A stretch of 28,675 nt of DNA, taken from positions 16,886 through 45,560 of IMG/VR virus record IMGVR_UViG_3300030060_004001. One strand, written 5' to 3'. This stretch comes from a virus. Below are positions 3,684 to 24,167 of the stretch, in pieces. The position numbers and the translations under genes were made by a program. The stretch's first letter is position 1, and each line of letters starts with the position of its first letter. The notes under the pieces were generated by a model, which saw only the letters and a program-made list of their open reading frames with translations, made no database searches and was not told the origin of the DNA.

Positions 3684-6600
3684 TTACTTATATCCTTCTA
3701 ATTGTTTTTGATAACCTTTAACCCAAGTTTTATATTGTTCCTCTGCATCATCAGATTTTGGATCTATACTTAGATCTCCCATCATTCTTTGTTTAAATTG
3801 AATAGCAGTTTCTCCTTGTCCATAATCCATTAATAAACGATCATTTCTTGATTTTAATATATCGTAAGTTTCTTTTTCATCGTCTGTCAACCCTTTTGTT
3901 TTTTGTTTTTCTGCATAATTTTTCTGCAAATTTTTATAGAAAGATCTATGGAAAGAAGTTTCTAAATTAGGTGGATCAAAATTATTTCCTTGTTTAGATC
4001 CTTTCATAATTATTTGAACATCCCTAGCTGGTATACCTTTGTTTATTAATATCGTTACTACATCTCCTCCGGGAACTTTACCCACTTCCATCATAGCGTT
4101 AACTTTTAAAGCTAATGTTTTAAGTTCCTCTTTGTACACTTTATTACGACTGTCATAATATTCTCGTAGTTCTACAGGCATTATATTTTTATTATTTACC
4201 CCTTCAGCAACTATATTTTTTAATCTTATATCTCCCTTTTTTCTTTCAATTATTCCTTTTAAATCTTTTTCTGTTTTTAATAAATTTTCTCCATTATTAT
4301 CATTAAAGAACTGGTCGTAATTGTTATATCCTAAATCTCTAATTGCTGATAAATTATTTCTGTCAACTGCATAACTTAATTCATTTTCTTTTTGTTCAGA
4401 TTCAAAAACAGTGTATTCTAAATTCTTTCTCATATCTAATTCATACGGCTTAAGTCCTATTAAAGCCATACCAATATCACCACTATACCCTTCATTTCGA
4501 AGTTTCTTAACATATTTAGCCATACTAGGAGTAAATCTCTTCAGAGCATACTCAAGAGATTTCATTCCTTTTACAAAATCAGAATCTCCTTTTAAATATA
4601 TAGGATTTCCATAGTTGTTTTTCCCCGATGTTATTTCAGTCGCTACTTGAACACCAATGTCCCCTGCAAAAAATTGAGTTGATAATTCATCTACAATATT
4701 TAATGTTACATCAGTAAATGACTCACCATTGCTTATTGCATTAAATAATTTTTCCTTAGCTCCAAAAGGATTTGACGCTGATAAATCAAAATATCTATAT
4801 ACTCCACCTTGTAATTTTTTATTTTTCGCAATCGCGTCAGCAGCCGCATCAGATATATATGGATTTTCTTCTTTTTGTTTTTCGATAATTTCTTTTTCTG
4901 AAATAGCATCATCCACTGAGATAGGTAATATGTTTGAGTTGGTTTGCCAAGGAGCGCGGAATACTCTCATTTTATCTAAAGCTATTTCTCCTTCAGGAGT
5001 TTTTGGATCTAACTCATCATCGTCTGATCCTAACGTTGAAAGAACAGAGGCTATCAAACCTTGAGAGACAGCAATAGCAGCTAATCTTTTACTTCCAATT
5101 TTTCTTATGTTAGGATTATCACTATTGAGTTCATCATATGCTAATTTTAAATTTGAAAATTGAACTCTGTATGATTCATAAGTAAAGGAAACGAATGGAG
5201 ATATAATTGGTAAATATTTAGTGGCCTGCACTAATTGTGGTATTTTATTCCAATTAGGGTATATTTCTGAGGCATTTTCAACGGCTTTATCAAATACTAT
5301 TTTCTTTTCTTCTTCAGTTAATTCAGAAACTTTTTTATTGTATAAAGCTTTAGCATAGGATTCAGCTTCATTCCAAGCTCCGTATATTTTCCAGAAATCA
5401 TCTTCCATTTGGTAAAGGCTTTGAGCTTTTTTACCAATTTTAAATTTATCATATATTCGTTGCCAAGTAGTTTTACGAGAAGTTTCATCAACTAAGCTTT
5501 GCTCAGGACTTTTATTAAGTAAACTTTTTATTTCTCCAAATTGAGCATCAGCGCCTAGTAATCCTTTTTCAGACATTACTTTATAAAAGTCTTCATCAAA
5601 ATTATTTTTTAAACTATTGTAAGTATCTTTAAATTTAGCAATGTTTATATGACCATTATTCAATGCTATACCTGTGTTACCAAAAAAGTTTATAGCGTGA
5701 GTAGGTAAATTGTATACAGTAAATATTTGTTTGTAAAACGCTTGAAACTTTTTATAACCATTAACTAAAGTTGTAAGTACGTCTTTTGTATTTTCTTGTA
5801 AATTTTTTCCATTCAGTTCATTTTTCACTTCTTCAGTGGTATAATATTTTTTACCCCCTATTTCAACTTCTGCCGTGTACACATCTCTTCCTTTATCACC
5901 AAAATCTTTTAGCCCTTGTTCAATAGCTTGATCTTCGGAATCAAACATAAAGCCATTCTTTTTTCCATATTCTACAACATCGTTTATCTTTTCTGCATTT
6001 TTTATTAAATTAGCTTGAGTCATTATAGTAGTTATAAACACACTAGAAGGGTCACCAAACTGACCTAAAGCCATTCTCATTTCAACGCTCAAATCTCCTT
6101 TAGATTTTACCTTTGGATTTCTAATGCCATTGCTAATTTCATTAGTAGGAGTTTTAGTCATTATGTCATCCAATATGTTTCTTGCTTTTGCCATAGCAAC
6201 CTCATCAGACATTTCAGGATTAGTTCTTTTTATTTCTTGATATATTTCTTGAGCGGCTTGATCTTTTAATTCTTCCGTTACTTCATCAGCCCAGTTTTTG
6301 TCAGTAAAGTTTTTATACTTTCTAGCAACATAAGTACCTAAATTTTCTTCTACTGCTTTACGCTGTTCATCGGAAAGTATATTTGCGTTTTGATCCGCTA
6401 CTAATAAATAAACACTTAACTGATCAATCATATTCCTCATCTCATTTACATTGTCCAGTATCTCTTGATCAATTGGAATAATTTCATCATTGTTTATTTG
6501 ATCTTGCACCCTAGAAATTCTTTCCATAGAATCTTCCAAGTTTATTAAGTTTCTTTTTGCAAACTCAATAGCAGATTCCATTTCTTTTAATTCCTTTTCT

Positions 6601-9600
6601 TCACTTATTAATTCTTCTTTAGAATATGTATCTCGAGCTTCATTTAAATCTTTTTCTAAATCAGAGATTAATTTTTTCTTTTCGTTTATCTTTTTTTGAA
6701 GTTCAGATTTCTTTTCATTTACGTTTTCTATTAACTCATCTTTAGACATTTCGCCTTTAGCGTATTTCTGTGGAACGATTCCCTCTAATATAGCCATTGA
6801 TGTAGTGTCGGTGTTTTTTGCTGTTACCGCATCTTTTATCTTAGCTATAGCCTTTTGGTATTTTTTAGCAATCTTTTCAGATTGTTTCAGGATGGAAGAA
6901 AATTTAAAACCAGGTGCATCCATTAACTTTCTAAAAGCTTTTGGCATTAAACCTTTAGCGGTAAACATTCTTCTTCTTAATTGCTCTGCAAATTTTGCCA
7001 GCTTGTTGCTAAAAGATTTACCAATAAACAAATCATCTTTTCCTTTCTTTTCTAAAAAGAAAAAGTCAAATACTTTTTTAGCACCTGGAATAGATTTTAC
7101 TTTATCGAATATAGTTTCAATTATAACTTGAGGCTGAAAACCAGCTTCCCTTTCTTCAGTGGTGTCGGGATCTTCGTCTATCGGTTTTTCATCTTGGACT
7201 TCTTCTTGTTGCTGTGACACTTCCATCTCACTGGTCGTCCCGCTTTCTTGTCCTTCTTCTCCTGTATCTTGCACGCTATCAGCTGTTTCCCTTTGTACGG
7301 CATAATCATTAATTTTAGTTAGTAATTCATCTGCTTTAATATCTCTGTCTGTACTAATGTCAATATCTAAATCAGGTATTAATTCAGAAACCTGACTGAG
7401 TTCTTCTAAGGTTAAGTTATTATCTCTAGATATAGCATAAGCAGCAATCTTTCTTGCTTCTATAATACCGTCTTCTGGAGTTTGTTCTACTTCTTCTACT
7501 TGTTCTAACTCTTCTACCTGCTCAGTTTCTCGTTGAGTTTCTTTGTCTTTGAGGGCTCTTTCTTTTAAAGCGGATACTTCTTTTTCAGATTGGTCAATTA
7601 TATCATCTATTTCTTGTTGCTTTGCTTTTATTAACCCATCGTACCCTCTTTGCATTCTTTTATTAGTAGCATTAGATTTTTGTTCTTCCAGCTTATTAAG
7701 CTCTAATATTTTTCTTGCAATGTCTAATTTCTGTTCTGGATCTAACCCAGGATAGGCGTTAGTTTGTTCGTAGGCATTTTTAATATCCTCAATGCGTTGC
7801 ATTATATCGTTAGCCTCATCAGCAGTTAATTCTCCTTTTGCAATTTTTACTTTTAACTTAGTTTCAAAACCTTGTTTTATATCTTCGTCTTCAGCAATAA
7901 TTAAAGCCGCAGCTATTTGTTCGTCTGTCGCTATGTCTGACGGACCATTTTGAGCTAGAGTAACTGCGGTGCTTACGATACCACCCGCTGCAAAACCTAA
8001 GCTACCTTCTAAAGCAGTGTCTTTCCAAAACTGTTTAGTAGATGGATTAAACTGTTCTCTTTCAGTAAACAACTCTCCTTCAGTGTTGGCTGCGAGCTTT
8101 TCCATTTCATTAAATATTTCCTGAAGTCCTTTTTGAGTCCACCCCTGTGATATTTCTGTAACAGCTTCTCCAGTTGCTCCAGTAAAAAGTTTTGCAACTT
8201 TGTAAGGATTGCTAAATATTTCTTCAACGTGTCTAAAAAATCCACGTAAGGTAGATTTCTTTCCAGCATCCATAAAGTATTTCTTTAAAAGCTTTTCTAA
8301 TACAGCACCTATTTTACCAGTAGAAAATTTAAGACCTAACCTGTCTAAATAAAAAATAGCAATACCAACTGCTGTTTTTAAAGCTAACTTGTGACTTTCT
8401 GGAATATCGTCAAATAAAGGATCTGTATCCATTCTTTCTGACAACCTTTCATAAACCATTGCTGCCGAAGAAGCAGGTAATGCATTCATCATAATACCCG
8501 CACTTGATGGCCCTAATACTAAAACAGCAGCGGTTATGTTACCAGCTAATTCATCAAGAACAGTTAGTAGTTGTCTTCCCCAATTGCCTTGTCTTCTTAT
8601 AGCTTCTATTTTTTCTTTTGGTATATCTCCTTCTAGTCCTAAAAAATCTCTTAAATCATCTGCGTCTTTTCGTATTTGATTTCTTTGATCTTCATCTAAC
8701 CCGCCAAAGGGAGTCTGAAGTAAATCCAACATATGTATGTAAGCACCAAGCAAAGGATCTTCAATGGCGTCTATAAAAATTTGCGTCCAATATGAGTATT
8801 CATCAGACAAGTTCATTTCATATGGTCCTGTTTGAATTTGATACTTTCTATAGTACTCTATTTTTTGAGCAATCAAAGCAGTGGATTCATCTTGAAGCTC
8901 ATCCATCACCTCTGCTTTAGCAATAATTTTTCTGCTAGTTTCTTCAATTTCTTCTTGCAGTTTTAAATAATCATCAGCAGCTTGGTTTATTTCTTCAAAA
9001 GTTGAGTTAGGATCTCCAACAATTTTTTTTAATTCTTCTGCTTGTGTTGTTTGATCTTCTAGTTTTTTAATGTAATTTTCTCTTAAAGTGAGTAGTTCTT
9101 TTTCTAATTGGACAATGTTTTTTCTAATTGCTTTTATCTCCTCTAAGTCTATTTGCTCATCTACTTCACTTCTTACTTTTTGTATTTCTGTTTTTTCTGA
9201 ACGAGCATTTTTTTCAATGAATTTTTTTAACTTCTCTTTTTCTTTTTTTATTTTTTCTCTTTGCTTGTCTGGATCAAGTATTTGAATGCCTAAATCACCT
9301 TCACCACCTCCAGTAATAGATTTTAAGCCTAAATCAATGTCGGTTCTAGATACATCTAAATCAATTGTTATTTCATCCGTTACATTACCATCTTCATCAA
9401 CCGCCTTTACAATCATTGAGTCTCCCACACCTGATTGCTCCGCTTCAATACCATAGTCGTTATAAATAGAGTTTACAAATGGAACTGAGTCTTCTTCGTT
9501 GCTTGTTATTATTTGATCTCCAATAGGTGTATCTAAAACTTTTGTTGGGGCCTCACCCGATTCGGTTTCCTCAAAAGCTTTATCAATTTCAGCTGTACTA

Positions 9601-10931
9601 TATCTAGTGGTTATGTCTGAGTTAGGGTGTAATCTACGATGGGAATTTACTTTTTCTTTAAACTCATCTTTCTTTACTTCTTTGTCTACTCTTTTCGTTT
9701 CTTCTAATACTGTTTTCTGCAGCTCTGTAGGTTCTTTTCCTTCTGCAGTAGGTAATACTATAGACTCCTCAATGACAACTTCTTTTTCATTTCCCTCTGG
9801 GTCGGTGTATGTAGCTTTAACTACATCTTTCATTTCTTCAACTTCACTAACGTCTTTATAAAGTTCTAACTGTTGTTTCTTATCTTCTCTTCTGACTATT
9901 TGTTGTTGTAACCCTGGATCTGTATTTGGATCTTTTCCTAATGCTGTTTCATTTTCTATAACTACATCTAAGTCTTCAATTTCTTTTTCCAGTTCTTGTA
10001 TTTCTTGACTAGTTGTTTTACCTGTTTCTGTTTCTGGGTCAATAGCAGTAGGTACACTAAAATCTCCTGTAGTTGTTTTACCTGTCTTTTCTTGTGTCTT
10101 GGTAACAACTACTACTTCATCTAACAATATACCATCAAAAGATGGGTCTTGCTCTTTGATTTTGTTTAAGACTTTTTGTTGGTCTTCATCTTTTAATTCA
10201 GATGGTTTGGTAGGGGTATTTTGATCTATCTCAAAAATTGTTTTGCGATCATCTGCCTCTGCGTCTGGAGTTGGTGTTGGTGCTGGGGCTGCTGGAGGAG
10301 GTGTTTTTGTAATTTCCTCTTTTAAAGATTCTTGAGCAGCTTCATAGTTTTCTTTATAGTATATCCCGCCTTTAGCAAATATTTCTCCACCTGGAGACTT
10401 AGATGCTCTTTTTAAATCATTTCGGGCTTTTCGATTAGTGGTTTTATATGAATACTTACCTATGTCATATCCAATTCCTTTAAATTTTACATTCGTAGGA
10501 ATATATCCTTTCTCAGCTTGTTCAAAAGTAATACCTTCTACGTCTGGGTCTAAGCCAGTTATTCGCTTATACTTCTCTTTCCATTTATCATCTGTGGGTT
10601 GTTGAGCAGCAGGTGGTTGTTGAGCAGCAGGTGGTTGTTGAGCAGCAGGGGAAGAAGCTTCTTCATCATTATCAACGGGAGAAGGTGGTTCAACCTCCGT
10701 TGGAGAAGACTCCGATGAGGTAGGCTCTTGACTCTCCTCTGTAGTGGACTCCGTATCTACCTCTAGTGAAGTAGAAGTTGAATCTTTTTTTTTTAAGATA
10801 GAGTCTTTTAGCTGATTTAATTCAGCTTTATCATTTATATCAGTAAACCTGTCCAGTAAATCTTGATCTGAAACATTTGGATTTGATTTAAGTTGACTCT
10901 CCAGTCTTCGTAATGTTTTTTCACTAGCCAT
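3684..10931 (-). CDS. Giant internal virion (ejection) protein, 2415 aa
   Basis: The last and largest gene of the structural block, preceded by two other presumed ejection proteins, occupies the place of the T7 gp16-type inner-core protein. I see no lysozyme or transglycosylase signature. Residues 40-120 are a disordered Ser/Thr/Glu/Pro-rich stretch with a PAAQQP tandem repeat. Charged coiled-coil-like segments lie near 560-690, 1060-1170 and 1400-1485, and a Glu/Gln-rich linker near 1217-1264. Hydrophobic or glycine-rich stretches that could insert in membrane lie near 794-820 (AAVLVLGPSSAGIMM), 847-863, 974-992 and 1949-1967. Near 1735-1755 it has YNLPTHAINFFGN, similar to the NPxTHxxNxxGN motif in the large polyvalent and ejection proteins of other phages. 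It is probably packaged in the capsid and injected with DNA. The start lies 1 nt after the upstream stop. The exact role is inferred. Confidence 0.8.
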   Translation of the reverse strand: MASEKTLRRLESQLKSNPNVSDQDLLDRFTDINDKAELNQLKDSILKKKDSTSTSLEVDTESTTEESQEPTSSESSPTEVEPPSPVDNDEEASSPAAQQPPAAQQPPAAQQPTDDKWKEKYKRITGLDPDVEGITFEQAEKGYIPTNVKFKGIGYDIGKYSYKTTNRKARNDLKRASKSPGGEIFAKGGIYYKENYEAAQESLKEEITKTPPPAAPAPTPTPDAEADDRKTIFEIDQNTPTKPSELKDEDQQKVLNKIKEQDPSFDGILLDEVVVVTKTQEKTGKTTTGDFSVPTAIDPETETGKTTSQEIQELEKEIEDLDVVIENETALGKDPNTDPGLQQQIVRREDKKQQLELYKDVSEVEEMKDVVKATYTDPEGNEKEVVIEESIVLPTAEGKEPTELQKTVLEETKRVDKEVKKDEFKEKVNSHRRLHPNSDITTRYSTAEIDKAFEETESGEAPTKVLDTPIGDQIITSNEEDSVPFVNSIYNDYGIEAEQSGVGDSMIVKAVDEDGNVTDEITIDLDVSRTDIDLGLKSITGGGEGDLGIQILDPDKQREKIKKEKEKLKKFIEKNARSEKTEIQKVRSEVDEQIDLEEIKAIRKNIVQLEKELLTLRENYIKKLEDQTTQAEELKKIVGDPNSTFEEINQAADDYLKLQEEIEETSRKIIAKAEVMDELQDESTALIAQKIEYYRKYQIQTGPYEMNLSDEYSYWTQIFIDAIEDPLLGAYIHMLDLLQTPFGGLDEDQRNQIRKDADDLRDFLGLEGDIPKEKIEAIRRQGNWGRQLLTVLDELAGNITAAVLVLGPSSAGIMMNALPASSAAMVYERLSERMDTDPLFDDIPESHKLALKTAVGIAIFYLDRLGLKFSTGKIGAVLEKLLKKYFMDAGKKSTLRGFFRHVEEIFSNPYKVAKLFTGATGEAVTEISQGWTQKGLQEIFNEMEKLAANTEGELFTEREQFNPSTKQFWKDTALEGSLGFAAGGIVSTAVTLAQNGPSDIATDEQIAAALIIAEDEDIKQGFETKLKVKIAKGELTADEANDIMQRIEDIKNAYEQTNAYPGLDPEQKLDIARKILELNKLEEQKSNATNKRMQRGYDGLIKAKQQEIDDIIDQSEKEVSALKERALKDKETQRETEQVEELEQVEEVEQTPEDGIIEARKIAAYAISRDNNLTLEELSQVSELIPDLDIDISTDRDIKADELLTKINDYAVQRETADSVQDTGEEGQESGTTSEMEVSQQQEEVQDEKPIDEDPDTTEEREAGFQPQVIIETIFDKVKSIPGAKKVFDFFFLEKKGKDDLFIGKSFSNKLAKFAEQLRRRMFTAKGLMPKAFRKLMDAPGFKFSSILKQSEKIAKKYQKAIAKIKDAVTAKNTDTTSMAILEGIVPQKYAKGEMSKDELIENVNEKKSELQKKINEKKKLISDLEKDLNEARDTYSKEELISEEKELKEMESAIEFAKRNLINLEDSMERISRVQDQINNDEIIPIDQEILDNVNEMRNMIDQLSVYLLVADQNANILSDEQRKAVEENLGTYVARKYKNFTDKNWADEVTEELKDQAAQEIYQEIKRTNPEMSDEVAMAKARNILDDIMTKTPTNEISNGIRNPKVKSKGDLSVEMRMALGQFGDPSSVFITTIMTQANLIKNAEKINDVVEYGKKNGFMFDSEDQAIEQGLKDFGDKGRDVYTAEVEIGGKKYYTTEEVKNELNGKNLQENTKDVLTTLVNGYKKFQAFYKQIFTVYNLPTHAINFFGNTGIALNNGHINIAKFKDTYNSLKNNFDEDFYKVMSEKGLLGADAQFGEIKSLLNKSPEQSLVDETSRKTTWQRIYDKFKIGKKAQSLYQMEDDFWKIYGAWNEAESYAKALYNKKVSELTEEEKKIVFDKAVENASEIYPNWNKIPQLVQATKYLPIISPFVSFTYESYRVQFSNLKLAYDELNSDNPNIRKIGSKRLAAIAVSQGLIASVLSTLGSDDDELDPKTPEGEIALDKMRVFRAPWQTNSNILPISVDDAISEKEIIEKQKEENPYISDAAADAIAKNKKLQGGVYRYFDLSASNPFGAKEKLFNAISNGESFTDVTLNIVDELSTQFFAGDIGVQVATEITSGKNNYGNPIYLKGDSDFVKGMKSLEYALKRFTPSMAKYVKKLRNEGYSGDIGMALIGLKPYELDMRKNLEYTVFESEQKENELSYAVDRNNLSAIRDLGYNNYDQFFNDNNGENLLKTEKDLKGIIERKKGDIRLKNIVAEGVNNKNIMPVELREYYDSRNKVYKEELKTLALKVNAMMEVGKVPGGDVVTILINKGIPARDVQIIMKGSKQGNNFDPPNLETSFHRSFYKNLQKNYAEKQKTKGLTDDEKETYDILKSRNDRLLMDYGQGETAIQFKQRMMGDLSIDPKSDDAEEQYKTWVKGYQKQLEGYK
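10598..10651. repeat. Three tandem 18-bp repeats in the giant virion gene
   Basis: Three adjacent copies of GTTGTTGAGCAGCAGGTG (+ strand reading) lie at 10598-10615, 10616-10633 and 10634-10651. The third differs at one base near its end. They encode the hexapeptide AAQQPP repeat near residues 94-114 of the 2415-aa protein. The unit is a multiple of 3, so copy changes keep the frame. Near-identity at DNA level suggests recent slippage expansion. Confidence 0.9.
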
Positions 10932-13593: not shown

Positions 13594-14394
13594 TTAATTT
13601 TTGCGTAAAATAGGGTTACTCATCATTGTGTCTGAGATAACTGAGAACAATTCAGAAGCAAACCTATCATCACTTGTTAGTGTATATTTCATATAATGAC
13701 CCCTTATTCCGTGTGATTCAGCCACTGTATTTTTAACATACATTATAAAATCTCCATTATTCGGAGGAGTTATAGGTAAAGTAGCATTAATCGTAATTAC
13801 ATTGGTTGCTCTATTTACAGCTGTTACAGTTCCAGAATCTTTTACTCCAGAGGGGCCTATTCCCGGAGAGAAGATAGTGTCTCCTACGCTTAAAATAGAA
13901 TCTATTTCAACGCTAGAGGCAAAAGCAATATCAAAAACATTAGGCGCTGTATTAGTAACAGTAGTGCAATTAGCAATACCATTGGCGTATCTAATTAAAA
14001 AATTAATATCAGTACTCACATAACGGATAAAAGAAAATTGATTACCTTCCTTTGTTTCAAAATAAGTTTTATCAATTGAAGCTACTTGCGGTAATCCGCT
14101 AGCTCCCAATAAATCTGTTTCCAAATCCACTTTCCATTTGGTATCGGATTGTATTTCTATGGTCTTAAAAAGTTTATTTTCAAGAGGAGATTTATTAAAT
14201 ACACTCGTTACCTTAGATTCATATTGTACGCCATAAAAATTAGCTCTATTTGTATTAGTATTATGCCTGTATAGTTGTCCATTTTTAAATGAATAAAAAT
14301 AATTATTTAAACCAACCATTGACTCAGGTATAAAAGAATAAAAAGAAGGCCATCCTTTATCGCTAGGGCTGTATGTTAAAGTATATTCTGACAT
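13594..14394 (-). CDS. Tail structural protein, probable partner of the large tail-hub protein
   Basis: This 266-aa protein starts in a TAATG overlap with the stop of the 1621-aa tail gene, so the two are translationally coupled. Its N-terminus KGWPSFYSFIPESMVGLNN followed by FYSFKNGQLYRHN is a motif I associate with tail proteins of crAss-like and marine Bacteroidota podoviruses, where it may also occur fused to the large hub protein. Residues ~170-205 contain SVGDTIF then GTVTAVNRATNVITI, a beta-type segment also seen in the capsid and 168-aa proteins. Composition is beta-rich, with no signal peptide or catalytic motif. It probably forms part of the tail hub or spike base. The exact role is not shown by the sequence. 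Confidence 0.7.
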   Translation of the reverse strand: MSEYTLTYSPSDKGWPSFYSFIPESMVGLNNYFYSFKNGQLYRHNTNTNRANFYGVQYESKVTSVFNKSPLENKLFKTIEIQSDTKWKVDLETDLLGASGLPQVASIDKTYFETKEGNQFSFIRYVSTDINFLIRYANGIANCTTVTNTAPNVFDIAFASSVEIDSILSVGDTIFSPGIGPSGVKDSGTVTAVNRATNVITINATLPITPPNNGDFIMYVKNTVAESHGIRGHYMKYTLTSDDRFASELFSVISDTMMSNPILRKN

Positions 14395-17300
14395 TATGAA
14401 AAGTAATCATATATAATATAAAGATAATTTAATGCTGGTGGTGGAGCTGAAGGGTTAAAATCAAAACTACCCGAGTAAACTCCCGTGCTAGTGGGTGACA
14501 CAGTAGTAATGTTGTTAGCAGCTGTAAGCAAAGCATTAATGTTTGATGGGTTATTTTGATACAATATATTGCTCCAAAAATACATCAGTCTATTGTTAGC
14601 AGTATCAAAATTATAAGTATCAGAATTAGATTTAACTGATTTAATATTTACTAACGAACTTAAAGAACCCAACGAAGCAGGTAGGCCACTTGTAGGAATC
14701 ATACCCTCTCCTTGTCCTCCTGATATTAATTCATATTGAGCCACATAATTGCCTGCGGTTTTGCCAGGGATAACATCAGTATCAAATAAAATTGTTTTAG
14801 AGTACAACGGGCTGTTAAAAGGTTCCTGATTACTCCAACTAAATTCATTAGTAATTTGTTTTCCTGCATCAGCCGGATCATAAACACAAACCAATACCAC
14901 TGTTAGTTGCTCTGGAGTTAAACACTTGTTTTCTAAAGTAAAACTAGCTGGTGTTACCGAACCATTTACTATTTGAACTTCTACTGAAGCATTCTCTACT
15001 GATGATTTGTTTTTATTAAAATTAAGTGTACCACTTCCTGTTACATTTCCTGTAGTAACAGAGATACCCCCATAATTTAAACTTAAATTTATTTCTCCTG
15101 AAGTAATATTATAATCTAATTCTCCTACATCTACACCTGTGCCATAGTCTACGGTGTAGTTTACTGTATCTTTTTGATTAGTAAATGTGAGTATATTACC
15201 GCAGTTATAAAGCAATGCTTCTTGAGGTAGTTTAACTTGATTCGAAGATAAAACATATTCATCTATAAACGGATCGTAAGCTCCTACTTTTTGAGTGTCG
15301 GGATAATCTACAAATAAATCTCTAAACCAACTTCTTAATCCAAATTCAGATACTACTTGTAATTGTTCATTGCTGTAAGCATCTCCTCTTAGCTCTATAA
15401 CAGCTCCTCGAGCTCCGTCTGTAAAGTATTTTCCAATACCATATTGAACATAGCTTTCTGGATTTCTACTAATTCCATATTCTTCAACTCTTGCAATTTG
15501 AGTTCCCAATACATTAGTAGAGGCAGATATATTCGCACTTCCATCTGCATTTAATAGTTGTGTTTTACCAGACAAAACATAAGAAATTTTATTTTCTTGC
15601 AAAGAAAGTAAATCAGATTTTCTACCATCTAATATTTGTATGTCACCATACCTATTGTCTAAATCTTTAAAATTTAAACTTCCTAAATTAAAAGAATTTA
15701 AACGATTTATATTTCCTTCCAAACTAAATAAACCACTATAAGTAATAGAAGATCCTCTTCTTGTTTCTTTATATTCTTGGTCTGAAATAGCATATATTCT
15801 ATTGCCAATAGTAAAGTTTGGTTTTTTTACAGAATCTAAAATGTTAATACTTTCTACACCATTTCCAAAAGAAAAACAATTATAAAAATCGTTTATAATA
15901 ATAGCTGGTGAATTAGCTGTACCCGGTTGAACTGGAGTTGAACCAGCAAAAGCAAGTTCGATACAAATTGTGTAAACATCTGGCACTTCTACCACAGTAT
16001 GTTCTCCTTGATAAGCCGTGTGTGTAAAAGGTAAATTCTGATTTATAATTACAGTGTCTCCCACAGTATAAGAGTGTGGTGTGTTAGAGCCGCCAAATAT
16101 AGAGTTATCTGTAAACACTACATTGTTTCCATACCCATTGGGTGAAGCAGGTAATCCAACAGCAGTTCTATAAGCGTTGTTTTGACCATTATCAGCAAAG
16201 TTCCAATCAAATTGATTTTGAAAATTACCTTGATGTTTGTTATTAATTATTTCATAAGACTCTTCTCCTTCAAAAAAGAAATCTGGATTTGAGTCTAATG
16301 CTTCTGTTTCAAAAACCAATGGCACACTTAATTGACTATTAAAAGTGATGTTCGACCTAATTTGACTTGGCGCGTTTCCATTTTCATTTCCGCTAGTCCC
16401 TAATCCTATAGCAAAACAACCATTAAATCTACTTCTAATCCCTAAACCAGGCCCCCCCGCAATAGATGCATTTAAACTTATTTCGTGATAATCTCCTGTG
16501 GGCTTAATGTCGTCTCCATCTACTATAACACTGTTAGTAAATTTTATGGGATAAACGGTTTCGGTGTTTGGCCCCAAACTAACGTTTCCAGCAGGAAAGT
16601 TGTCACTAGAATCAACAAATTGAGTTTGTATAAATGCTGCTAAATTTGTTCTTAAATCATTTACTGCAGAACCAGTGCTTGTATTGTAATTTTGATTAGC
16701 TGTTCTGCTGATTTGTAATCTTTGATACCCAATAAAATCACAACCAGCAAACAATCCTGAATTTCTATCTCTATAAAATAAAATATCTAAAGTAACTATC
16801 GTGCCACTTGGAATAGCTCCTGTCGAAAAAGCAGTTGCTGCCGTAACATCGCTTAAGTCTACAACTAAATTAGCAAAACTATCACCAATATTTCCACCTA
16901 AATCCTCCTCCCCAAAAACTTCAACCCTAACGTTGTTAACAACAGGAACAAAACCAGGTGTTTCTTTTATCTTCATATAAGCTCCTGCAGGAGGATTTAA
17001 AGTAGAAACAATATTAGGTGTAACAGATTTTTCTAAAACAGAAATTTCTTCGTAAGAAGATAACGCACTAACTGAATCTCTTTTTGGTATTAAAAGCTGA
17101 CCCGCTGTTACTTTAGCAGCTTGCTCTCCTTCTAAGTAACACCAGTAGTAACTGGAGTCATTTTGATCTTCAAAAACTTGAGATGAGTAAATAGTGTCAT
17201 AAGTTAACGCAGAAGGTTTTATAGCAAACTTATACCGTTTTGCCCAAAAAGGAGCATTCATAGAGGGAGGTATAGTGGTTCTAGCTTTATTAATTAAAAT

Positions 17301-19259
17301 TGATGAAGAAACAGGAACATTAAAACTACTATTTAAACTTAATAAAGGAGTGGTAGATCTGTTATATTCATCCATATATATAATACCAATGTCATAGTCT
17401 CTGTTACTATGTAAACTTTTTTTATCTCCTGTAGGATTAACATTAAATGAAGGAGGAGCAGCAGACCAAAATCTAATACCCTCATAAGAGTAAGAACCTC
17501 CAGCAGACCCAGGTGTACTATAATAAACTGGTAAAGGAAGTTGTATGGTTAATAAATTAGAATCATTACTTGGAGGGGCGAAAGTAGTAATGTTAAAACC
17601 TGTTTGCCCAGTGGGGTAGCTAAGCGGAGGTGGATTAAAAAGTGCAGCACTTGCGTCAGGTGCAGCTGAGTTAACAGGAGTTGCCGCTGAACTCGTTACT
17701 GTGTTTGTAGCTGGGTTTAATGTTATAGCATCATTTATAAGGTCGGTTGCAGTTAAAGGTGAAGCCGCTGATGCTGTGCTAAATGGGTTGAAATAAGTTG
17801 GTGGAGTGCTTGCTGCTCCAATACCTAATGCTCTTTTAAACTCATTACTATTAAAAAAAGAATATGCATTTGCATAAGAATCATTTAAGACAATAAGAAA
17901 CCCCGATCTTATTATTATAGGGTCTGTTCTTGTAACATCTAAGTTTAAAACTGCCGGATTATCGTTTACTACTTCGCTTTGTACACCAGCATAAATAGAA
18001 AAGTTAAAAGCAATTTCAGTTCCGGAAACAAACTCAACTCCTGTAAAATCAAAAGTAGCTTGAGATCCTGTGATAGTAGCAGCAGCTGGAGAGGTATTAC
18101 TTAAAGTGTAGGTAGAATCATTAATTGTTCCTACAATTGTTGATGATAAAGCTTGATTAGTTAAAGGATCAACTTGATTTGGTTCATAAATTTCAGAAAC
18201 ATAGTCTAATGGTATTTTATTACCTGCAGCATCTTTTATATCATAACCATCTACATAGTTACCATACATTAGTCTATTATCTTGAAATGTTTGAGCTTTA
18301 GCTAATTTAGGAACATTGTCAAAAACTCTTAATATTTCCGCGCTAGATAAAATAGTTTTTATTTTTTTATCTTTAAAAAAAACGTTTTGCGTAATATTAT
18401 TAGACCATCCGTTATCTTTTTTATTATATGTGTCTATAACTTTTATTACATCATTACTAGAATCTTTAAAACACAAATCAATATCTGTTACTCTTTTATC
18501 TCCAGTATTAAATCCTATAGTAAGAGAATTAAATTTGTTTTGCATTGCGTTATTTAAACTCTTGGAAAAGTCAAAATCAAAATCACTTTTAGGAAGAAAA
18601 GTAGGAGAAGTAAACTGAGATAAGGCACTATATTCACCGTCAATGTACTTATATCTATAAGCGAAACATAAAAAATTATCAAATAAAAAACCTTCTTCAA
18701 GAGGAGGAGTATTTGTTAAAATAATAGTGGGCTTTTCTTTTGGAGGTTTTACAATTACAGATAAATCGTCTTCTACAATTGTATCAACTCCACCAGTAGG
18801 TAAACCATAAGTTTTTTTAACATTTATTTTTCGAGGAGGATTGTAGTTATCAGTCCAAAAAAGTAAATCTCCAATTAAGTTAACTCCTGTAATGTGATAA
18901 GTTTTATTGAAATTCAAAACACTTACCGATACTACGTGGTAAATTAAATTTTCTGATACTACATTGTAAGATAGAATTAAGTCCCCATTGTTAGGGTCAT
19001 TGATAAACCAATAAATATTATTGTCAATAGGGTCAGCATAACTTCCTATACATACTGCAGCCCCAGATAGTGTAGTTCCTAAAAAATCAACATCTGTTAA
19101 TTTAGTATTTCCTTTGGCTTTTTCTAATGATCCAACTTCAGATACAGTGCTGGAACCAGTTCTTAAATTTAACGCATCAATGTATTCTCCCTCAGCTAGA
19201 ATCCTTTCATCATCGGACTTGTTCATTTTGCCCTTTAAAAAACTACTAATGGTTTTCAT
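14394..19259 (-). CDS. Large tail-hub protein (muzzle/stabilization-protein type), 1621 aa
   Basis: The N-terminus carries KGKMNKSDDERIL followed by GEYIDALN (residues 9-31), the hallmark I associate with the large tail stabilization or muzzle protein of crAss-like and many marine podoviruses. The rest is Ser/Thr/Asn/Gly-rich and beta-strand-dominated, with no coiled coil, as expected for a beta-propeller or beta-barrel tail hub closing the DNA channel. One segment near residues 120-160 (TYHITGVNLIGDLLFWTDN, then PPRKINV) matches this N-terminal module in other phages. The gene follows the two adaptor genes with a 1-nt gap and overlaps the 266-aa tail gene as TAATG. No lytic or peptidase motif is evident. 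A family-level role in tail assembly is well supported; precise placement in the virion is inferred. Confidence 0.75.
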   Translation of the reverse strand: MKTISSFLKGKMNKSDDERILAEGEYIDALNLRTGSSTVSEVGSLEKAKGNTKLTDVDFLGTTLSGAAVCIGSYADPIDNNIYWFINDPNNGDLILSYNVVSENLIYHVVSVSVLNFNKTYHITGVNLIGDLLFWTDNYNPPRKINVKKTYGLPTGGVDTIVEDDLSVIVKPPKEKPTIILTNTPPLEEGFLFDNFLCFAYRYKYIDGEYSALSQFTSPTFLPKSDFDFDFSKSLNNAMQNKFNSLTIGFNTGDKRVTDIDLCFKDSSNDVIKVIDTYNKKDNGWSNNITQNVFFKDKKIKTILSSAEILRVFDNVPKLAKAQTFQDNRLMYGNYVDGYDIKDAAGNKIPLDYVSEIYEPNQVDPLTNQALSSTIVGTINDSTYTLSNTSPAAATITGSQATFDFTGVEFVSGTEIAFNFSIYAGVQSEVVNDNPAVLNLDVTRTDPIIIRSGFLIVLNDSYANAYSFFNSNEFKRALGIGAASTPPTYFNPFSTASAASPLTATDLINDAITLNPATNTVTSSAATPVNSAAPDASAALFNPPPLSYPTGQTGFNITTFAPPSNDSNLLTIQLPLPVYYSTPGSAGGSYSYEGIRFWSAAPPSFNVNPTGDKKSLHSNRDYDIGIIYMDEYNRSTTPLLSLNSSFNVPVSSSILINKARTTIPPSMNAPFWAKRYKFAIKPSALTYDTIYSSQVFEDQNDSSYYWCYLEGEQAAKVTAGQLLIPKRDSVSALSSYEEISVLEKSVTPNIVSTLNPPAGAYMKIKETPGFVPVVNNVRVEVFGEEDLGGNIGDSFANLVVDLSDVTAATAFSTGAIPSGTIVTLDILFYRDRNSGLFAGCDFIGYQRLQISRTANQNYNTSTGSAVNDLRTNLAAFIQTQFVDSSDNFPAGNVSLGPNTETVYPIKFTNSVIVDGDDIKPTGDYHEISLNASIAGGPGLGIRSRFNGCFAIGLGTSGNENGNAPSQIRSNITFNSQLSVPLVFETEALDSNPDFFFEGEESYEIINNKHQGNFQNQFDWNFADNGQNNAYRTAVGLPASPNGYGNNVVFTDNSIFGGSNTPHSYTVGDTVIINQNLPFTHTAYQGEHTVVEVPDVYTICIELAFAGSTPVQPGTANSPAIIINDFYNCFSFGNGVESINILDSVKKPNFTIGNRIYAISDQEYKETRRGSSITYSGLFSLEGNINRLNSFNLGSLNFKDLDNRYGDIQILDGRKSDLLSLQENKISYVLSGKTQLLNADGSANISASTNVLGTQIARVEEYGISRNPESYVQYGIGKYFTDGARGAVIELRGDAYSNEQLQVVSEFGLRSWFRDLFVDYPDTQKVGAYDPFIDEYVLSSNQVKLPQEALLYNCGNILTFTNQKDTVNYTVDYGTGVDVGELDYNITSGEINLSLNYGGISVTTGNVTGSGTLNFNKNKSSVENASVEVQIVNGSVTPASFTLENKCLTPEQLTVVLVCVYDPADAGKQITNEFSWSNQEPFNSPLYSKTILFDTDVIPGKTAGNYVAQYELISGGQGEGMIPTSGLPASLGSLSSLVNIKSVKSNSDTYNFDTANNRLMYFWSNILYQNNPSNINALLTAANNITTVSPTSTGVYSGSFDFNPSAPPPALNYLYIIYDYFS

Positions 19260-19260
19260 T

Positions 19261-20193
19261 CTACTTAATTATTTTGTCCTGTCCTCTAAGATTCATTAAC
19301 AATCTACCAGGGTGAATGTTGCTCATTCTTATTTTCGCATTTCTTAATAACGCACTTTTGTTTCTTCTAGCTCTTTGCACTTGGTATTCAGGAATACCTA
19401 ATTTAGAATTTAACAATGAATATGTAATATAAGCATATATAAATTCTTCAAATAATTTATTGACCGTTATTAAAGAGTTATCTCCATTTTCCATACCATC
19501 AGAAACATACTCTAATATAACTATTTTACCACCAGCTCCACTGCTGAAATTTATCACACCTCCTTTATTGTCAATTCTAAAAGTAGGTAAAGCATTAGCA
19601 GTTTCTGTATTCAATCCAAATCTTTTTCCAAAAGCATAGTCAAACGCCCAAAACCCAGCTTCCTCAATATACCATCCGTAGTATCCGTGAAAAGGACTAG
19701 ATTCGTTTAGATATATGCTTTTCTTTCTTTTTTTAATTCTATCCATATCAATGTTAGAATCATTTGGTTTTAATACGTTTCCGTTTTGATCAAATAAAAT
19801 ATTACAATCGTTATCTTGAAGATAAGCTTCTGCATAATTTGTTTGTATATTTTCTGTTAAAGGAAATAAAACACCGTCATAATAAATAGAAACACGAACC
19901 CAGTTTACATAGTCAGGAGGTAATATATATTTTAAAGTATCATCACATACCTCAAGTTCTAATATTTTAATTTCTTTAAAAGCATCATAATTTAATTCTT
20001 GAATAGCTCGTTTTGCGTGAAATAATATTTTGTATCTTTCTTCATTAGTAGTTAAATTATTATTGTCGTGATACATCAACATATAATTATTAACCACATC
20101 CTTTAAAGAAACATATTGATAAGATCCCCAGTTTTTATCAAGAGGTAAATTACCACCGTTTTCGTAATATTGGTATTGAGAAATATAAGCCAT
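19261..20193 (-). CDS. Head-to-tail adaptor / ring protein
   Basis: This 310-aa protein starts MAYISQYQYYENGGNLPLD. Residues ~60-110 contain ERYKILFHAKRAIQELNYD and then TLKYILPPDYVNWVRVSIYY, a pattern of the P22 gp4-like and crAss-like tail tubular or ring proteins that connect the portal to the tail. The first part is a helical bundle and the later part is beta-rich. The conserved basic C-terminus (VQRARRNKSALLRNAKIRMSN) is also common in such adaptors. It overlaps the preceding gene as TAATG and is followed after 1 nt by the tail-hub gene, so the three are one translational unit. Assignment comes from motif memory and gene order. Confidence 0.7.
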   Translation of the reverse strand: MAYISQYQYYENGGNLPLDKNWGSYQYVSLKDVVNNYMLMYHDNNNLTTNEERYKILFHAKRAIQELNYDAFKEIKILELEVCDDTLKYILPPDYVNWVRVSIYYDGVLFPLTENIQTNYAEAYLQDNDCNILFDQNGNVLKPNDSNIDMDRIKKRKKSIYLNESSPFHGYYGWYIEEAGFWAFDYAFGKRFGLNTETANALPTFRIDNKGGVINFSSGAGGKIVILEYVSDGMENGDNSLITVNKLFEEFIYAYITYSLLNSKLGIPEYQVQRARRNKSALLRNAKIRMSNIHPGRLLMNLRGQDKIIK

Positions 20194-20918
20194 TAAGTTT
20201 CAGTTTGAGTGTTTAATATTTCCGAAGCGTTTGCGTCAGCTACAATCTCTTGCTCTCTTATAGATAAACCACTATATTTTAATATTCTAGTTACCAATTC
20301 AGCATAGTCCGACATTGGTAATTCAAAGTCTTGATAGTCAGGTTGTGATTGGTCAAATATTGGCTCTCCTAAAGTAAGGGTATTAAAGGTCCATTTAGGA
20401 TCTTTAGGGTATCTAATATATTGTAGCGTTAAGTTTCCTACTATAGTGTTTGGATAAACTCTTAATGAATTAGATAAGTTTGAAGCAGGTGATGGAGTGG
20501 GTTGAAAAACGTAAGCTGGAAACTCAGCAGAAGGGGCAGTTAGTAATGAAGAGTTTAATAAATTTATTTTAGACTCATTTACTCTTTCGACTATTGTACT
20601 TCCATTTAATAAATCTAATAACGTGTACCAGTCATTAGGAAGCGGGTATACACCTCCAGCTTGAGCAATGCTAATTTGCATAGTAAAAGTGTCTATAACT
20701 TCTGCTAATTGCTTTTTAAGATCAGCTAAACCACTACCAGACAATCTACCTAATCTATTGTTTTCTTTGTTTATTTGTCTATTGTAACCATAAAAATATT
20801 GTTCGAATATGTCTAGTTGAGCTTGTTTTGCAAACAAGTTGAAATCAGAGGGTGAAATATATCCGTAATTATTTTTATTTAAAATAGATAATACTGTGTT
20901 TCTTACTTCATTGATCAT
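20193..20918 (-). CDS. Tail tube / ring structural protein
   Basis: This 241-aa protein starts MINEVRNTVLSILNKNNYGYISPSDFNLFAKQAQ, where the GYISPxxFNLFAxxAQ pattern recurs in a structural family of marine Bacteroidota podoviruses and crAss-like phages annotated as tail tubular or ring proteins. The C-terminal third has YIRYPKDPKWTF, then FDQSQPDYQDFELPMSDYAELV, a second typical block. It is the first gene after an intrinsic terminator and a promoter-like TTATCTTTG box 16 nt upstream of the ATG, so it probably starts a new transcription unit that includes the adaptor and tail-hub genes. A ring at the portal-tail interface is the likely site. No enzymatic motif is present. Confidence 0.7.
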   Translation of the reverse strand: MINEVRNTVLSILNKNNYGYISPSDFNLFAKQAQLDIFEQYFYGYNRQINKENNRLGRLSGSGLADLKKQLAEVIDTFTMQISIAQAGGVYPLPNDWYTLLDLLNGSTIVERVNESKINLLNSSLLTAPSAEFPAYVFQPTPSPASNLSNSLRVYPNTIVGNLTLQYIRYPKDPKWTFNTLTLGEPIFDQSQPDYQDFELPMSDYAELVTRILKYSGLSIREQEIVADANASEILNTQTET

Positions 20919-20944: not shown

Positions 20945-20975
20945 CAAAAAAAAAGAGCACTCATAAAGTGCTCTT
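20945..20975 (-). terminator. Intrinsic terminator after the 168-aa gene
   Basis: Read on the minus strand, AAGAGCACT and AGTGCTCTT form a 9-bp stem around the 5-nt loop TTATG, followed by an uninterrupted run of T. It begins about 20 nt past the stop of the 168-aa gene at 20997. Confidence 0.88.
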
Positions 20976-20996: not shown

Positions 20997-21503
20997 TTAT
21001 CCTATAGATATTCCAATAACTCTAAATGGATCAATTGTAATATCGTGAGCCACGTCTTTCCAATGTGTTTGTAAAGCAGTTACAACAAAATCTTCTATTT
21101 GATCTCTTACATATTCGCTTCCAGCTGCCACAGGAGTATGAACTAAAGTGACTACATCAACAGCTGCTACATCATCATAAGTGATAGTAACGGTAGATGT
21201 ACTAGCTTGCTCAATTAAACCAATGTTTCCACAAGAAACTAATTGATTATTACTAAGAGTGTCTGAGTGAATAAAATATGCTTTAGAAGTGGGAACTGTA
21301 GTTCCTACAGATAAAACTGTTTCGCTGTCTACAGCGGTAACAGTGGTGTATGTGTTGTCAGTAGAGTTGTGAACTATATCACCTACTTGAACATTATTAG
21401 TGACAAAAGTAGCACTACTATCGGTTAGCTTGTTAGCTGTTCCAGCAGTAGTAGTTCCATTGGCTAATAATTTGAATACAGGTATGCTTAAAAACTTTTC
21501 CAT
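20997..21503 (-). CDS. Small virion-associated protein with inserted beta domain (168 aa)
   Basis: This protein is a paralogue of the 99-aa protein encoded just upstream. Both begin MxKFLSIPV and both carry NQLVS...LIE, then V(A/x)(A/S)GSE..RD, then a final (Q/T)xWxDV..(x)I segment. Between residues 10 and 84 this copy has about 75 extra residues (KLLANGTTTAGTANKLTDSS... to YFIHSD) with the pattern VGDIVHN...TTVTAVDSETVLSV, a beta-type module seen in other phage structural proteins. It ends just before an intrinsic terminator. Position after the capsid gene suggests a capsid-decorating or head-associated protein, but that is inference. The ATG at 21503 is chosen because the leader and first codons match the 99-aa gene at DNA level. 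Confidence 0.75.
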   Translation of the reverse strand: MEKFLSIPVFKLLANGTTTAGTANKLTDSSATFVTNNVQVGDIVHNSTDNTYTTVTAVDSETVLSVGTTVPTSKAYFIHSDTLSNNQLVSCGNIGLIEQASTSTVTITYDDVAAVDVVTLVHTPVAAGSEYVRDQIEDFVVTALQTHWKDVAHDITIDPFRVIGISIG

Positions 21504-21519
21504 AATTGTAAAAATTAAG
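21480..21519. repeat. Direct repeat (copy A) spanning leader and start of the 168-aa gene
   Basis: This 40-nt stretch is identical at 34 positions to 21791-21830, which spans the same part of the 99-aa gene. Each copy contains the A/T-rich leader and the codons for the first residues of MxKFLSIPV. It is the DNA trace of the gene duplication. Confidence 0.85.
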
Positions 21520-21814
21520 CAATTACAATAGCACTTACTGCTTTTGGCAGTTTATCGACTTCTTTTACAACGTCTCTCCAGGGTTGTTGTAAAGCTAATA
21601 CAACCTCATTTTGAAACAAATCTCTCATCTCTTCACTTCCTGACGCAACTGTTGCGTGAGTAAGAGTGATTTTTTTGCCTCCTCCATAAAAAATAGTAAC
21701 ATTGTCTAAAGGATCAGATCCTGAAGCATCTCCTACTTCGATCAACTTAACATCTGATGCAGAAACCAACTGGTTTTGCTCACCTGTTACGGGTATACTT
21801 AAAAACTTTTGCAT
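21515..21814 (-). CDS. Small virion-associated protein (99 aa), paralogue of the 168-aa protein
   Basis: A longer frame opens at 21868, but the start at ATG 21814 (MQKFLSIPVTGEQNQLV) is preferred: its leader and first codons match the paralogue, and the extra 18 residues would lie over the terminator and promoter box. The protein is 99 aa, with the core NQLVSASDVKLIE, a beta stretch (NVTIFYGGGKKITLTHATV), ASGSEEMRDLFQNEVVLAL and a final PWRDVVKEVDKL. No catalytic residues or membrane segments stand out. It is compact and soluble. A head or capsid accessory role is suggested by position between capsid and tail adaptors, without direct evidence. The gene has its own promoter-like box 31 nt upstream and runs into the 168-aa gene after 11 nt. 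Confidence 0.8.
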   Translation of the reverse strand: MQKFLSIPVTGEQNQLVSASDVKLIEVGDASGSDPLDNVTIFYGGGKKITLTHATVASGSEEMRDLFQNEVVLALQQPWRDVVKEVDKLPKAVSAIVIA

Positions 21815-21830
21815 AGTTAAAAAAATTAAG
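21791..21830. repeat. Direct repeat (copy B) spanning leader and start of the 99-aa gene
   Basis: This is the partner of 21480-21519, with 34 of 40 positions identical. The identity includes non-coding leader sequence (CTTAATTTTT on the minus strand), which argues for duplication or selection on the translation start region as well as on the protein. Confidence 0.85.
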
Positions 21831-21845
21831 TGGGTTAATAAAAAA

Positions 21846-21853
21846 CAAAGGTA
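21846..21853 (-). promoter_or_regulatory. Candidate Bacteroidota -7 promoter element (TACCTTTG)
   Basis: The minus-strand box TTACCTTTG lies at the end of the U-tract of the terminator at 21855-21886, 31 nt before the ATG of the 99-aa gene. It fits TAnnTTTG and would drive the 99/168-aa pair. Confidence 0.5.
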
Positions 21854-21854
21854 A

Positions 21855-21886
21855 TAAAAAAACCCCACTATAAGAAGCGGGGCTTT
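21855..21886 (-). terminator. Intrinsic terminator before the 99-aa gene
   Basis: On the minus strand AAAGCCCC pairs with GGGGTTTT (four G-C pairs, one G-T and three A-T) around a 12-nt loop, and a T-run follows. It lies between the 244-aa gene (stop at 21950) and the 99-aa gene. Confidence 0.82.
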
Positions 21887-21949: not shown

Positions 21950-22684
21950 TTATTTTAACATTTTAATTAATGCTTCATATATTTCTACATTATTTTCTTT
22001 TTTGAAAAAATCAGCTAACACTGTAGAAGGAGTTTCACCAAAAGGAATACTACATAATTTAGTTTTTTTAGATTTTAAATTATAGTAAATCTCTTTATCA
22101 TTGTTTCTGGTCTTTAATAAAGATTGACCAAACATTTTATCAATATTATCAAATAAATCTAAATCCGGATCTTCTAATGCATTTAAAAAGTCTTCTGGAT
22201 TATTTCTTGCAAACAACAAAACATCTCTTTTTATTTCTGAAGAAGCTGCTATTCTAGTGTCTACATTTAAATACACTCTAGCTAAAGATTCCATTTTATC
22301 AAAACTCAGTCCTGCGGCTTCTTTTTGTGCTTTAGCTTCTAATTCTAAATACTGCACCTCTTCTTGAGCATCTTTCTCTCTATCTATTTCCTCAAAAATC
22401 TGTCCGTTTGCTGGGTGATAATACAAAAACTCTTGCAATACTGGATTTGTTTTTGGAACAAACAACATACCATCTTCAAAAACAACTGGCTCTAAAACTG
22501 AAGTAGCATCTTGCTCATCTTCAAAAGGTGATTTTTGATTTGAAGCATACCTAAGTGGTCTACTTGTTGTTCCATCAAAATGTAAAAGGGGTTTTCTTCG
22601 ACTGTTTCTTGAGTTAAGAGTATAACTCAAAGGCTTTACATTATTACGTAGCCTATATGTTCTATCTTTTATTTCTTTTTTCAT
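21950..22684 (-). CDS. Hypothetical head-module protein (244 aa)
   Basis: A longer frame opens at 22774, but its first 30 codons overlap the capsid gene end and the intrinsic terminator. The start is taken as ATG 22684 (MKKEIKDRTYRLRNNVKPL), giving 244 aa. The basic N-terminal part contains SRNSRRKPLLHFDGTTSRPLRY and NQKSPFEDEQD, followed by an acidic region (FEEIDREKDAQEEVQYLELEAKAQ) and a helical C-terminal half (SSEIKRDVLLFARNNPEDFLNALEDPDLDL). The pattern R(x)KPLLxFD...LRYxxNQxSPFxDEQD seems familiar from marine Bacteroidota phages, but I can give no function. It directly follows the capsid gene beyond a terminator, and a head or cargo protein is plausible. No promoter-like box is seen upstream, so it probably depends on readthrough. 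Confidence 0.75.
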   Translation of the reverse strand: MKKEIKDRTYRLRNNVKPLSYTLNSRNSRRKPLLHFDGTTSRPLRYASNQKSPFEDEQDATSVLEPVVFEDGMLFVPKTNPVLQEFLYYHPANGQIFEEIDREKDAQEEVQYLELEAKAQKEAAGLSFDKMESLARVYLNVDTRIAASSEIKRDVLLFARNNPEDFLNALEDPDLDLFDNIDKMFGQSLLKTRNNDKEIYYNLKSKKTKLCSIPFGETPSTVLADFFKKENNVEIYEALIKMLK

Positions 22685-22745: not shown

Positions 22746-24167
22746 TTACTTAAATAACAAGAAGTTATTTGCACCCATAGTACAAAGTGCTCTTTCAGAT
22801 AAGAAGTTAACAGTCATAACATCTTTATCGCTAGTAGCAGCACCACCAGCAGATCCAGTTATCCAAGACTTATATCTTCTATCTTCAGTTTCTGACGCTC
22901 TATATCTTACGTGTAAGAATGGTCTTTTAGCATTTCTACCTAATACTTGATCGTAAACATTAGTTGAACCAGCAGGTACTAATACACCTTCAACAGCTCC
23001 ACCAACTAAACCACCTCGCATAGTAGGATCGTTTAGATATTTCCAATCTGATTTGTAGAAATCATAACCTCTTCGGAATCCAGTGAATCCTAGGTTAAGT
23101 GCCATTTCTTCGTCATTGTCAAACAATCCGTAAGAAGTACCACCTGCACCGTAAGAGTTCTGAGCAGCTAACATATCATCAATAGCAAATGAAGTAGATC
23201 TATTTAAGAAAAGTACATTCTCTTCAATAGCTCCTTGCTTATCTAATCTTTCAACGATATCGTCAAAATCAGCTAATGCAGCTAAAGCTCCAGTCCAAAC
23301 GTTTCCTCTTTGCTCTATAGCGTGGAAAAGACCTTCTGAACCTTTGAAAGAATCTCCAATAGCTCCTGATGCAGCTTGAGCTGGTACAGCTTCGATCATT
23401 GCTGATTCTAAATAATCATCAAATCTCATTCTTGTTTCGTGCTCTGCTTTTAAATACCAAAGGTATCCATCAGCACCATCTTCAGTAGATACTTCGATCC
23501 ACCCGATTTGTGCCATATCAGATCCATTTACTTCATAAGTATCTTTTAAGATAATAGGATTGTTTTCTAAAATAGTGTCAAATGGCTCAAGAGATCCTGA
23601 CATTCCATTTTGACCTTTTTTAAATTCAGATCCATAAATCCAAACAGTTACTTTTTCATTTGCATCAACTCCAGTACCAACACCAGTATATCCACCACCT
23701 TCGTAAAACTTAACAGTGAAAGTAGTAGCGGTAACTGCAGTTACGATACCTTTGTTAGAAATACCAGCGAAACCTGTGTTACCAGAAATCATAACTGTGT
23801 TTCCTATTCTAATAGCAATATTAGAAGCATCAGCAGGATTATAAACCTGGTTAGCAGGAATCAAAACATCAGCTACAGTAAAAGTAGCAGTGTCGTCAGC
23901 AGCAGCAGCTGGTGTAGATACGCTTGTATATTTAATATGCAATCTTCCTTGCTCTGCCCATTTGATAAGGTCAGAGTTAGAAGGCATTTCAGCTCCCGTC
24001 ATTCGAAGGAAGCCGCTTATTGTTCTATTCCCATATCTTTCAAACTCCTTTTCATAAGTATCAGGAAGATATTGGTTTAAGAAATTAAAATTGGCTAAGT
24101 AGTTAGTAGCACTAGGTACTTTAGTAGCACTAGGCTGTAACGCAAAGCCAGGTACATTTAAACTCAT
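22746..24167 (-). CDS. Major capsid protein
   Basis: This 473-aa protein has the N-terminal signature of the capsid family in marine Bacteroidota podoviruses and crAss-like relatives: NQYLPDTYEKEFERYGNRT followed by SGFLRMTGAEMP and IKWAEQGRLHIKY (residues ~31-80). This corresponds to the N-arm and first part of an HK97-like fold. Residues ~115-155 hold a beta-rich insert (IRIGNTVMISG...GIVTAVTATTFTVKF) similar to modules in two other proteins here. The C-terminal half (FRRGYDFYKSDWKYLND, then RPFLHVRYRASETEDRRYKSWITG) is typical. The gene lies between a scaffold-like protein (gap 12 nt) and a strong terminator, the usual setting for high expression. No Shine-Dalgarno precedes the ATG. The leader is A-rich, as in Bacteroidota. 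Confidence 0.88.
   Translation of the reverse strand: MSLNVPGFALQPSATKVPSATNYLANFNFLNQYLPDTYEKEFERYGNRTISGFLRMTGAEMPSNSDLIKWAEQGRLHIKYTSVSTPAAAADDTATFTVADVLIPANQVYNPADASNIAIRIGNTVMISGNTGFAGISNKGIVTAVTATTFTVKFYEGGGYTGVGTGVDANEKVTVWIYGSEFKKGQNGMSGSLEPFDTILENNPIILKDTYEVNGSDMAQIGWIEVSTEDGADGYLWYLKAEHETRMRFDDYLESAMIEAVPAQAASGAIGDSFKGSEGLFHAIEQRGNVWTGALAALADFDDIVERLDKQGAIEENVLFLNRSTSFAIDDMLAAQNSYGAGGTSYGLFDNDEEMALNLGFTGFRRGYDFYKSDWKYLNDPTMRGGLVGGAVEGVLVPAGSTNVYDQVLGRNAKRPFLHVRYRASETEDRRYKSWITGSAGGAATSDKDVMTVNFLSERALCTMGANNFLLFK

Follow-up and report, generated by a model that had tools for sequence, protein, structure and literature searches.

Ig-like and BACON domains are promiscuous accessory domains of phage virions, with one and the same family grafted into many unrelated virion proteins. 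Decoration proteins of the T4 Hoc type (PMC10385173) join a constant particle-binding domain to variable beta domains, have Ig-like folds arranged as a terminal string and are missing from some relatives. In crAss001, the outer layer is the capsid auxiliary protein gp36, which coats the capsid's hexamers and pentamers and packs onto the insertion domain of MCP; its PH domain (residues 1-74 and 238-333) is interrupted by a second domain, a FliD/FliC-like FD domain, and its gene lies between MCP and other ring genes (PMC10172136). The tail hubs, which sit on R1/R2, include the small proteins gp38 and gp39, encoded beside ring genes (PMC10172136).

Here we describe a common protein family encoded next to the capsid genes in aquatic crAss-like phages, with a small member (S) that consists of a core only and a longer one (L) whose core holds an inserted beta-barrel, and we find the same barrel grafted into several virion proteins. 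Comparison of relatives indicates that phages exchange the insert of L regardless of what surrounds it. S and L are probably optional accessory virion proteins that display this exchangeable barrel, analogous to T4 Hoc. Because the exchange takes place at a fixed site, recombinant domains allow a direct test of what is varied on the surface of these phages, and against what.

The window, that is, the whole stretch of 28,675 nucleotides analysed here, spans positions 16886-45560 of a 45,560-base virus record. It holds a crAss-type structural module, all on the minus strand, in the order portal, a 357-aa protein (g357), MCP, g274 (about 245-275 aa), S, L, r241, r310 and muzzle genes. We base this assignment on the crAss muzzle C-terminal domain (PF25729, E 2.7e-13), present in a separate protein of 266 aa, and on MCP, portal and ring proteins that match Pervagoviridae, Pachyviridae and Elemovirus, a likeness at the level of the module and not formal membership of Crassvirales. 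The closest deposited phages are a Manatee Spring contig, Maribacter phage Panino, Flavobacterium elemo phages and Cellulophaga phages phi38:1 and Calle, and the carriers of S and L are aquatic crAss-like phages related to Flavobacteriia podoviruses. The muzzle C-terminal domain forms its own gene (window 13594-14394) after that of a large muzzle-like protein of 1621 aa (14394-19259); crAss001 has a single gp44, whereas the window virus splits this domain off. The module ends with one ORF of 2415 aa (window 3684-10931), probably a cargo or ejection protein. The genes and segments around S and L are as follows.

22746..24167, minus strand: MCP (phrog_13704).
21950..22684, minus strand: g274, a conserved gene flanked by MCP and S (phrog_34748; the ATG of 22684 is used as its start).
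21515..21814, minus strand: S, 99 aa, core-only family member (family profile; model pLDDT 88.7).
20997..21503, minus strand: L, 168 aa, core plus inserted barrel (family profile; model pLDDT 91.3).
21477..21503, minus strand: L residues 1-9 (MEKFLSIPV), which form core strand beta-1 and the left edge of the cassette (model; near-fixed codons).
21246..21476, minus strand: L residues 10-86, exchangeable beta-barrel cassette in the beta-1/beta-2 hairpin (model; comparison of relatives).
21000..21245, minus strand: L residues 87-168, remaining core common to S (family profile; model).
20193..20918, minus strand: r241, ring/adaptor-type neighbour protein (SU10_adaptor, E 0.002, below the curated cut-off).

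An earlier note on this DNA had read 20997-21814 as tandem paralogues, the longer with a beta-type domain of about 75 residues inserted, and both points are borne out. A search within the genome aligns S with the core of L (43% identical over residues 12-93 of the query, E 1.9e-10), the family profile matches both proteins (E 2.8e-34 and 4.5e-30), and 77 residues of L (10-86), modelled as a barrel, replace four in S (TGEQ). In AlphaFold2 models built on family alignments, the shared core of about 95 residues consists of four strands followed by a helix and another two strands; the first two strands are residues 4-9 and 12-18 in S and are longer in L (4-17 and 75-90), with the barrel between them. 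The nine N-terminal residues, for which the earlier note had suggested a role as a docking tag, are not a free tag in either model: they make up the first strand (beta-1) of the core and are its most conserved part. The shared parts agree in fold, as BFVD viral proteins of S size (91-94 aa) match the L model, and with it the L core, at a TM of 0.76-0.81 of their length and one 174-aa relative matches the entire L model (TM 0.94, 41% identity).

By sequence, neither core nor barrel appears to be covered by a Pfam or PHROG family, and both are unnamed. No convincing match to S, L or the insert came from Pfam, PHROGs or the PDB sequences. A tblastn search of 50,697 phage records, for which the queries were S, L, a consensus S and an insert hybrid made by hand, returned no relative, and neither did a scan of genome contigs for a host or provirus. 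Weak matches to an Arthrobacter 'capsid decoration protein' (E 2) were dismissed after hhalign, and profile comparison gave no support for the insert as a homologue of the MCP insertion domain. At the level of predicted structure, the S core weakly resembles PH domains, which rank first in VIA-align (Z 5.4, rmsd 4.2, 70 aligned), where a Z below 8 may reflect a common arrangement and permits fold analogy, not family assignment. Neither protein shows the FliD/FliC-like FD domain that interrupts the PH domain of gp36: S has no insert, and the matches listed for the insert of L are small barrels (from phage tail proteins, Uba1 and F1-ATPase, Z 6-8). Foldseek against the PDB gave no match with E < 0.001 for either model; gp36 is absent among the PDB matches listed, an absence that is not informative.

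With S or L as the query, the loci retrieved place S between g274 and r241 in more than 100 environmental contigs, in the arrangements S, S+L or S+S+XL (XL being a family member with two barrels), within a conserved order portal-g357-MCP-g274-S(-L)-r241-r310-muzzle. About 60 loci carry S+L, many more S alone and others S+S+L/XL; a scan for XL yields 53 loci with tandem arrays up to S-S-XL-S-S, and 402 candidate IMG/VR contigs encode a relative with the S motif. Because many divergent phages share S/L pairs, the pair is old, and the duplication followed by insertion that the earlier note had proposed is not a local event. No member was detected in the examined regions of Maribacter, Flavobacterium, Cellulophaga and Tenacibaculum phages and crAss001, and none was found in Pervagoviridae, elemo phages, the Manatee Spring phage and Panino; in the elemo, phi38:1, Calle and Manatee Spring phages the ring gene directly follows the g274-like gene. 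The isolated relatives examined do without S and L, and particles of this kind may therefore not need the proteins, which could even have no structural role.

A profile built from the L inserts finds the same barrel family in 42 of 138 related r241 ORFs (residues ~111-180; the window's r241 is without it), in the muzzle of one locus (L071), in SU10_adaptor proteins of other phages and in proteins of 160-170 aa with a phrog_12296 C-terminal domain. Homologues of r241 have or lack the barrel depending on the phage (for example L035 4440-5387 and L175 4565-5512). The window virus itself encodes, outside the window, a 157-aa fibre-like protein with the phrog_12296 C-terminal domain and a barrel of this family (contig 1:1417-1893, minus strand; locus L003), of which elemo phages have the C-terminal part and no matching insert. 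Like Ig-like and BACON domains, the barrel is thus grafted widely, but it is without a matching Pfam or PHROG model and its allele exchange at a fixed site is visible. In a FastTree phylogeny (midpoint rooting, branch support not considered), the L inserts group with the first XL barrel and the second XL barrel with ring and muzzle barrels, for which the simplest reading is that a barrel entered the hairpin once and was then exchanged, the second XL barrel being gained separately.

Signals around S and L, and the regions in which their starts are alike, are the following.

21859..21886, minus strand: terminator-like hairpin between g274 and S (hairpin scan).
21844..21853, minus strand: TACCTTTGTT, TAnnTTTG box of the Bacteroidetes promoter type, upstream of S (similar box visible in most relatives).
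21788..21830, minus strand: start-region DNA of S that is alike to that of L (43 nt, 86%).
21477..21519, minus strand: start-region DNA of L that is alike to that of S (43 nt, 86%; compared across relatives).
20953..20975, minus strand: terminator-like hairpin after L (hairpin scan).

With terminator-like hairpins on both sides and a promoter-like box before S, S-L looks like a two-gene unit that is transcribed separately. Such hairpins occur at 11 sites in the scanned stretch against 3.6 expected, the TAnnTTTG pattern alone is only slightly above chance in the window (14 versus 8.7), and the S leader is kept in relatives as a TAnnTTTG box followed by a TATTAACC.CTTAATTTTTT-like stretch. The likeness of the two starts pointed out before is real and includes the 5' leader, but it does not look like a trace of the original duplication: comparison of the relatives' leaders confines it to the window's lineage, as other L genes mostly begin '...TTAAGAT ATG' with MEKFLN[VI]PV and the window's L has the S-type FLSIPV, and the leader likeness was accordingly rejected as evidence of a recent duplication. 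Because this likeness is so restricted, the start of the window's L looks like the product of a later exchange between S and L starts.

As for function, the shared core would anchor S and L to the particle and L would display its barrel of about 75 residues from the beta-1/beta-2 hairpin, XL relatives displaying two. Gene position makes a capsid-surface location plausible, and we lean slightly towards the head surface, ahead of a neck collar. As in the T4 Hoc type (PMC10385173), a constant core is combined with variable beta domains (0, 1 or 2 barrels per core) in proteins that some relatives do without; the differences are that S and L have a PH-like core and a barrel in place of Ig-like folds, that the insert of L sits inside a hairpin and not in a terminal string, and that the capsid link of S and L is a putative one, drawn from gene position.

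S and L could instead belong to the tail collar or dock fibres on the ring barrel, in the manner of THA and THB of crAss001, with the barrel positioning fibres. We regard this as unlikely, even though the ring gene r241 comes directly after S and L, the same barrel occurs in ring and fibre-like proteins of these phages, THB (gp39) is likewise small with 114 aa and hubs sit on R1/R2 (PMC10172136). Against it, profile comparison does not relate S to gp39 (hhalign aligns a single column at a probability of 0.7%), S-L is set apart from r241 by its own terminator-like hairpin, and elemo and phi38:1 phages have ring genes without S. The other hub protein, gp38, is matched by no family profile.

A further proposal, that S and L are size-reduced homologues of gp36, overlaps with the accessory-protein reading as to location and adds common descent. 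It would accord with PH domains as the best structural matches of S, albeit at low Z, and with the gp36 architecture and gene position (PMC10172136). Common descent is nevertheless rather unlikely, given that hmmsearch against crAss001 loci and hhalign found no meaningful match, that gp36 is two to three times the size (333 aa), with its insertion after residue 74 instead of 9 and another inserted fold, and that relatives do without S. The accessory-protein reading has points against it as well: the PH likeness is weak, S and L showed no sequence relation to known crAss auxiliary, hub and fibre proteins, and within one clade S did not covary with the MCP insertion domain (Mantel r 0.02), so that a contact between them is unsupported. 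In the same clade S covaries with the L core (partial Mantel r 0.45, p 0.002), which adjacency explains equally well.

S and L might also act inside the cell and not belong to the virion, for example in counter-defence or assembly, and lie within the structural module by chance. This fits their absence from the relatives examined, but is decidedly improbable in view of their conserved position between capsid and ring genes and of a barrel family otherwise seen in ring, adaptor, fibre-like and muzzle proteins.

Other inserts at the same point were sought in relatives with a strongly positive result, and the proposed variable domain on a constant base holds, with inserts that differ between relatives while the core stays. 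Across L proteins, insert identity hardly tracks that of the neighbours (rho 0.17 with r241 and 0.21 with MCP); core and S identity do track them (rho 0.57-0.67), as does r241 with MCP (0.81). Some pairs are 92-95% identical in the core, 95-97% in r241 and 92-97% in MCP yet only 31-39% in the insert (L010/L035: 95%, 97%, 93% and 37%), and the reverse is also found (L008/L052: insert 89%, core 51%, r241 54%). Among 166 pairs with backbones at least 85% identical, inserts fall below 50% in 84, and core and S below 70% in three each. Where backbones are less than 60% identical (463 pairs), inserts reach at least 80% identity in 35, S in three and the core in none.

At the DNA level, the switch in identity is sharp. 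In windowed comparisons of the gene, a block of 26-76% identity extends from about nucleotide 30 to 250 of the L gene between flanks mostly above 85-90%, reverse pairs show a 90% block in a background of ~50%, and the breakpoints coincide with the hairpin that holds the insert. Tree tests on a reduced sequence set point the same way: insert data reject the core and ring trees, and core and ring data reject the insert tree. With branch lengths re-optimised, the insert data reach a log-likelihood of -2084 on their own tree, of -2826 under the backbone topology and of -2925 to -3104 when the tips are shuffled, so the backbone topology fits only little better than shuffled ones. Core and ring trees also conflict, more mildly, and some recombination therefore reaches the core.

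Ordinary fast divergence or metagenome mis-assembly is very improbable as the source of this pattern, even with every S/L locus on a metagenome contig and the insert as the least conserved part of L, because near-identical inserts (85-90%) that recur on backbones with ring proteins about 53% identical cannot arise from divergence, several cassette types recur in independent contigs of one clade (three in one 18-locus backbone clade) and mis-assembly would need a ~230-nt double chimera recurring at the same two points.

The barrel is thus a cassette swapped among phages that have the remaining structural module in common. The probable route is homologous recombination, acting on conserved DNA at the start of the gene and at the insert's FIHS end. 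Codons at the cassette edges are nearly fixed (Leu5 is TTA in 43 of 44; Ile-His-Ser is ATT-CAT-TCA in 86-100%), whereas an equally conserved Leu at alignment column 110 has its commonest codon in only 43%; as other fixed codons exist, the arms are suggestive only. It is conceivable, though we hold it as doubtful, that the L locus is a cassette-exchange diversification system, in which short, codon-fixed arms at the gene start (common to S and L) and the FIHS end serve as anchor points for recombination, so that barrels from a pool shared across the population are placed on a constant virion anchor, with an effect comparable to a diversity-generating element but by recombination between phages. 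With cassette exchange, the displayed domain varies and the anchor stays constant, the purpose of which may be to vary what the particle surface touches, the ligands being perhaps host glycans or particles, or to track changes of the host surface.

Variation is also seen in MCP itself, where a putative insertion domain (residues about 75-185) is far more variable than the rest, at about 80% identity versus 96-99% elsewhere in pairs with backbones at least 95% identical, and covaries with g274.
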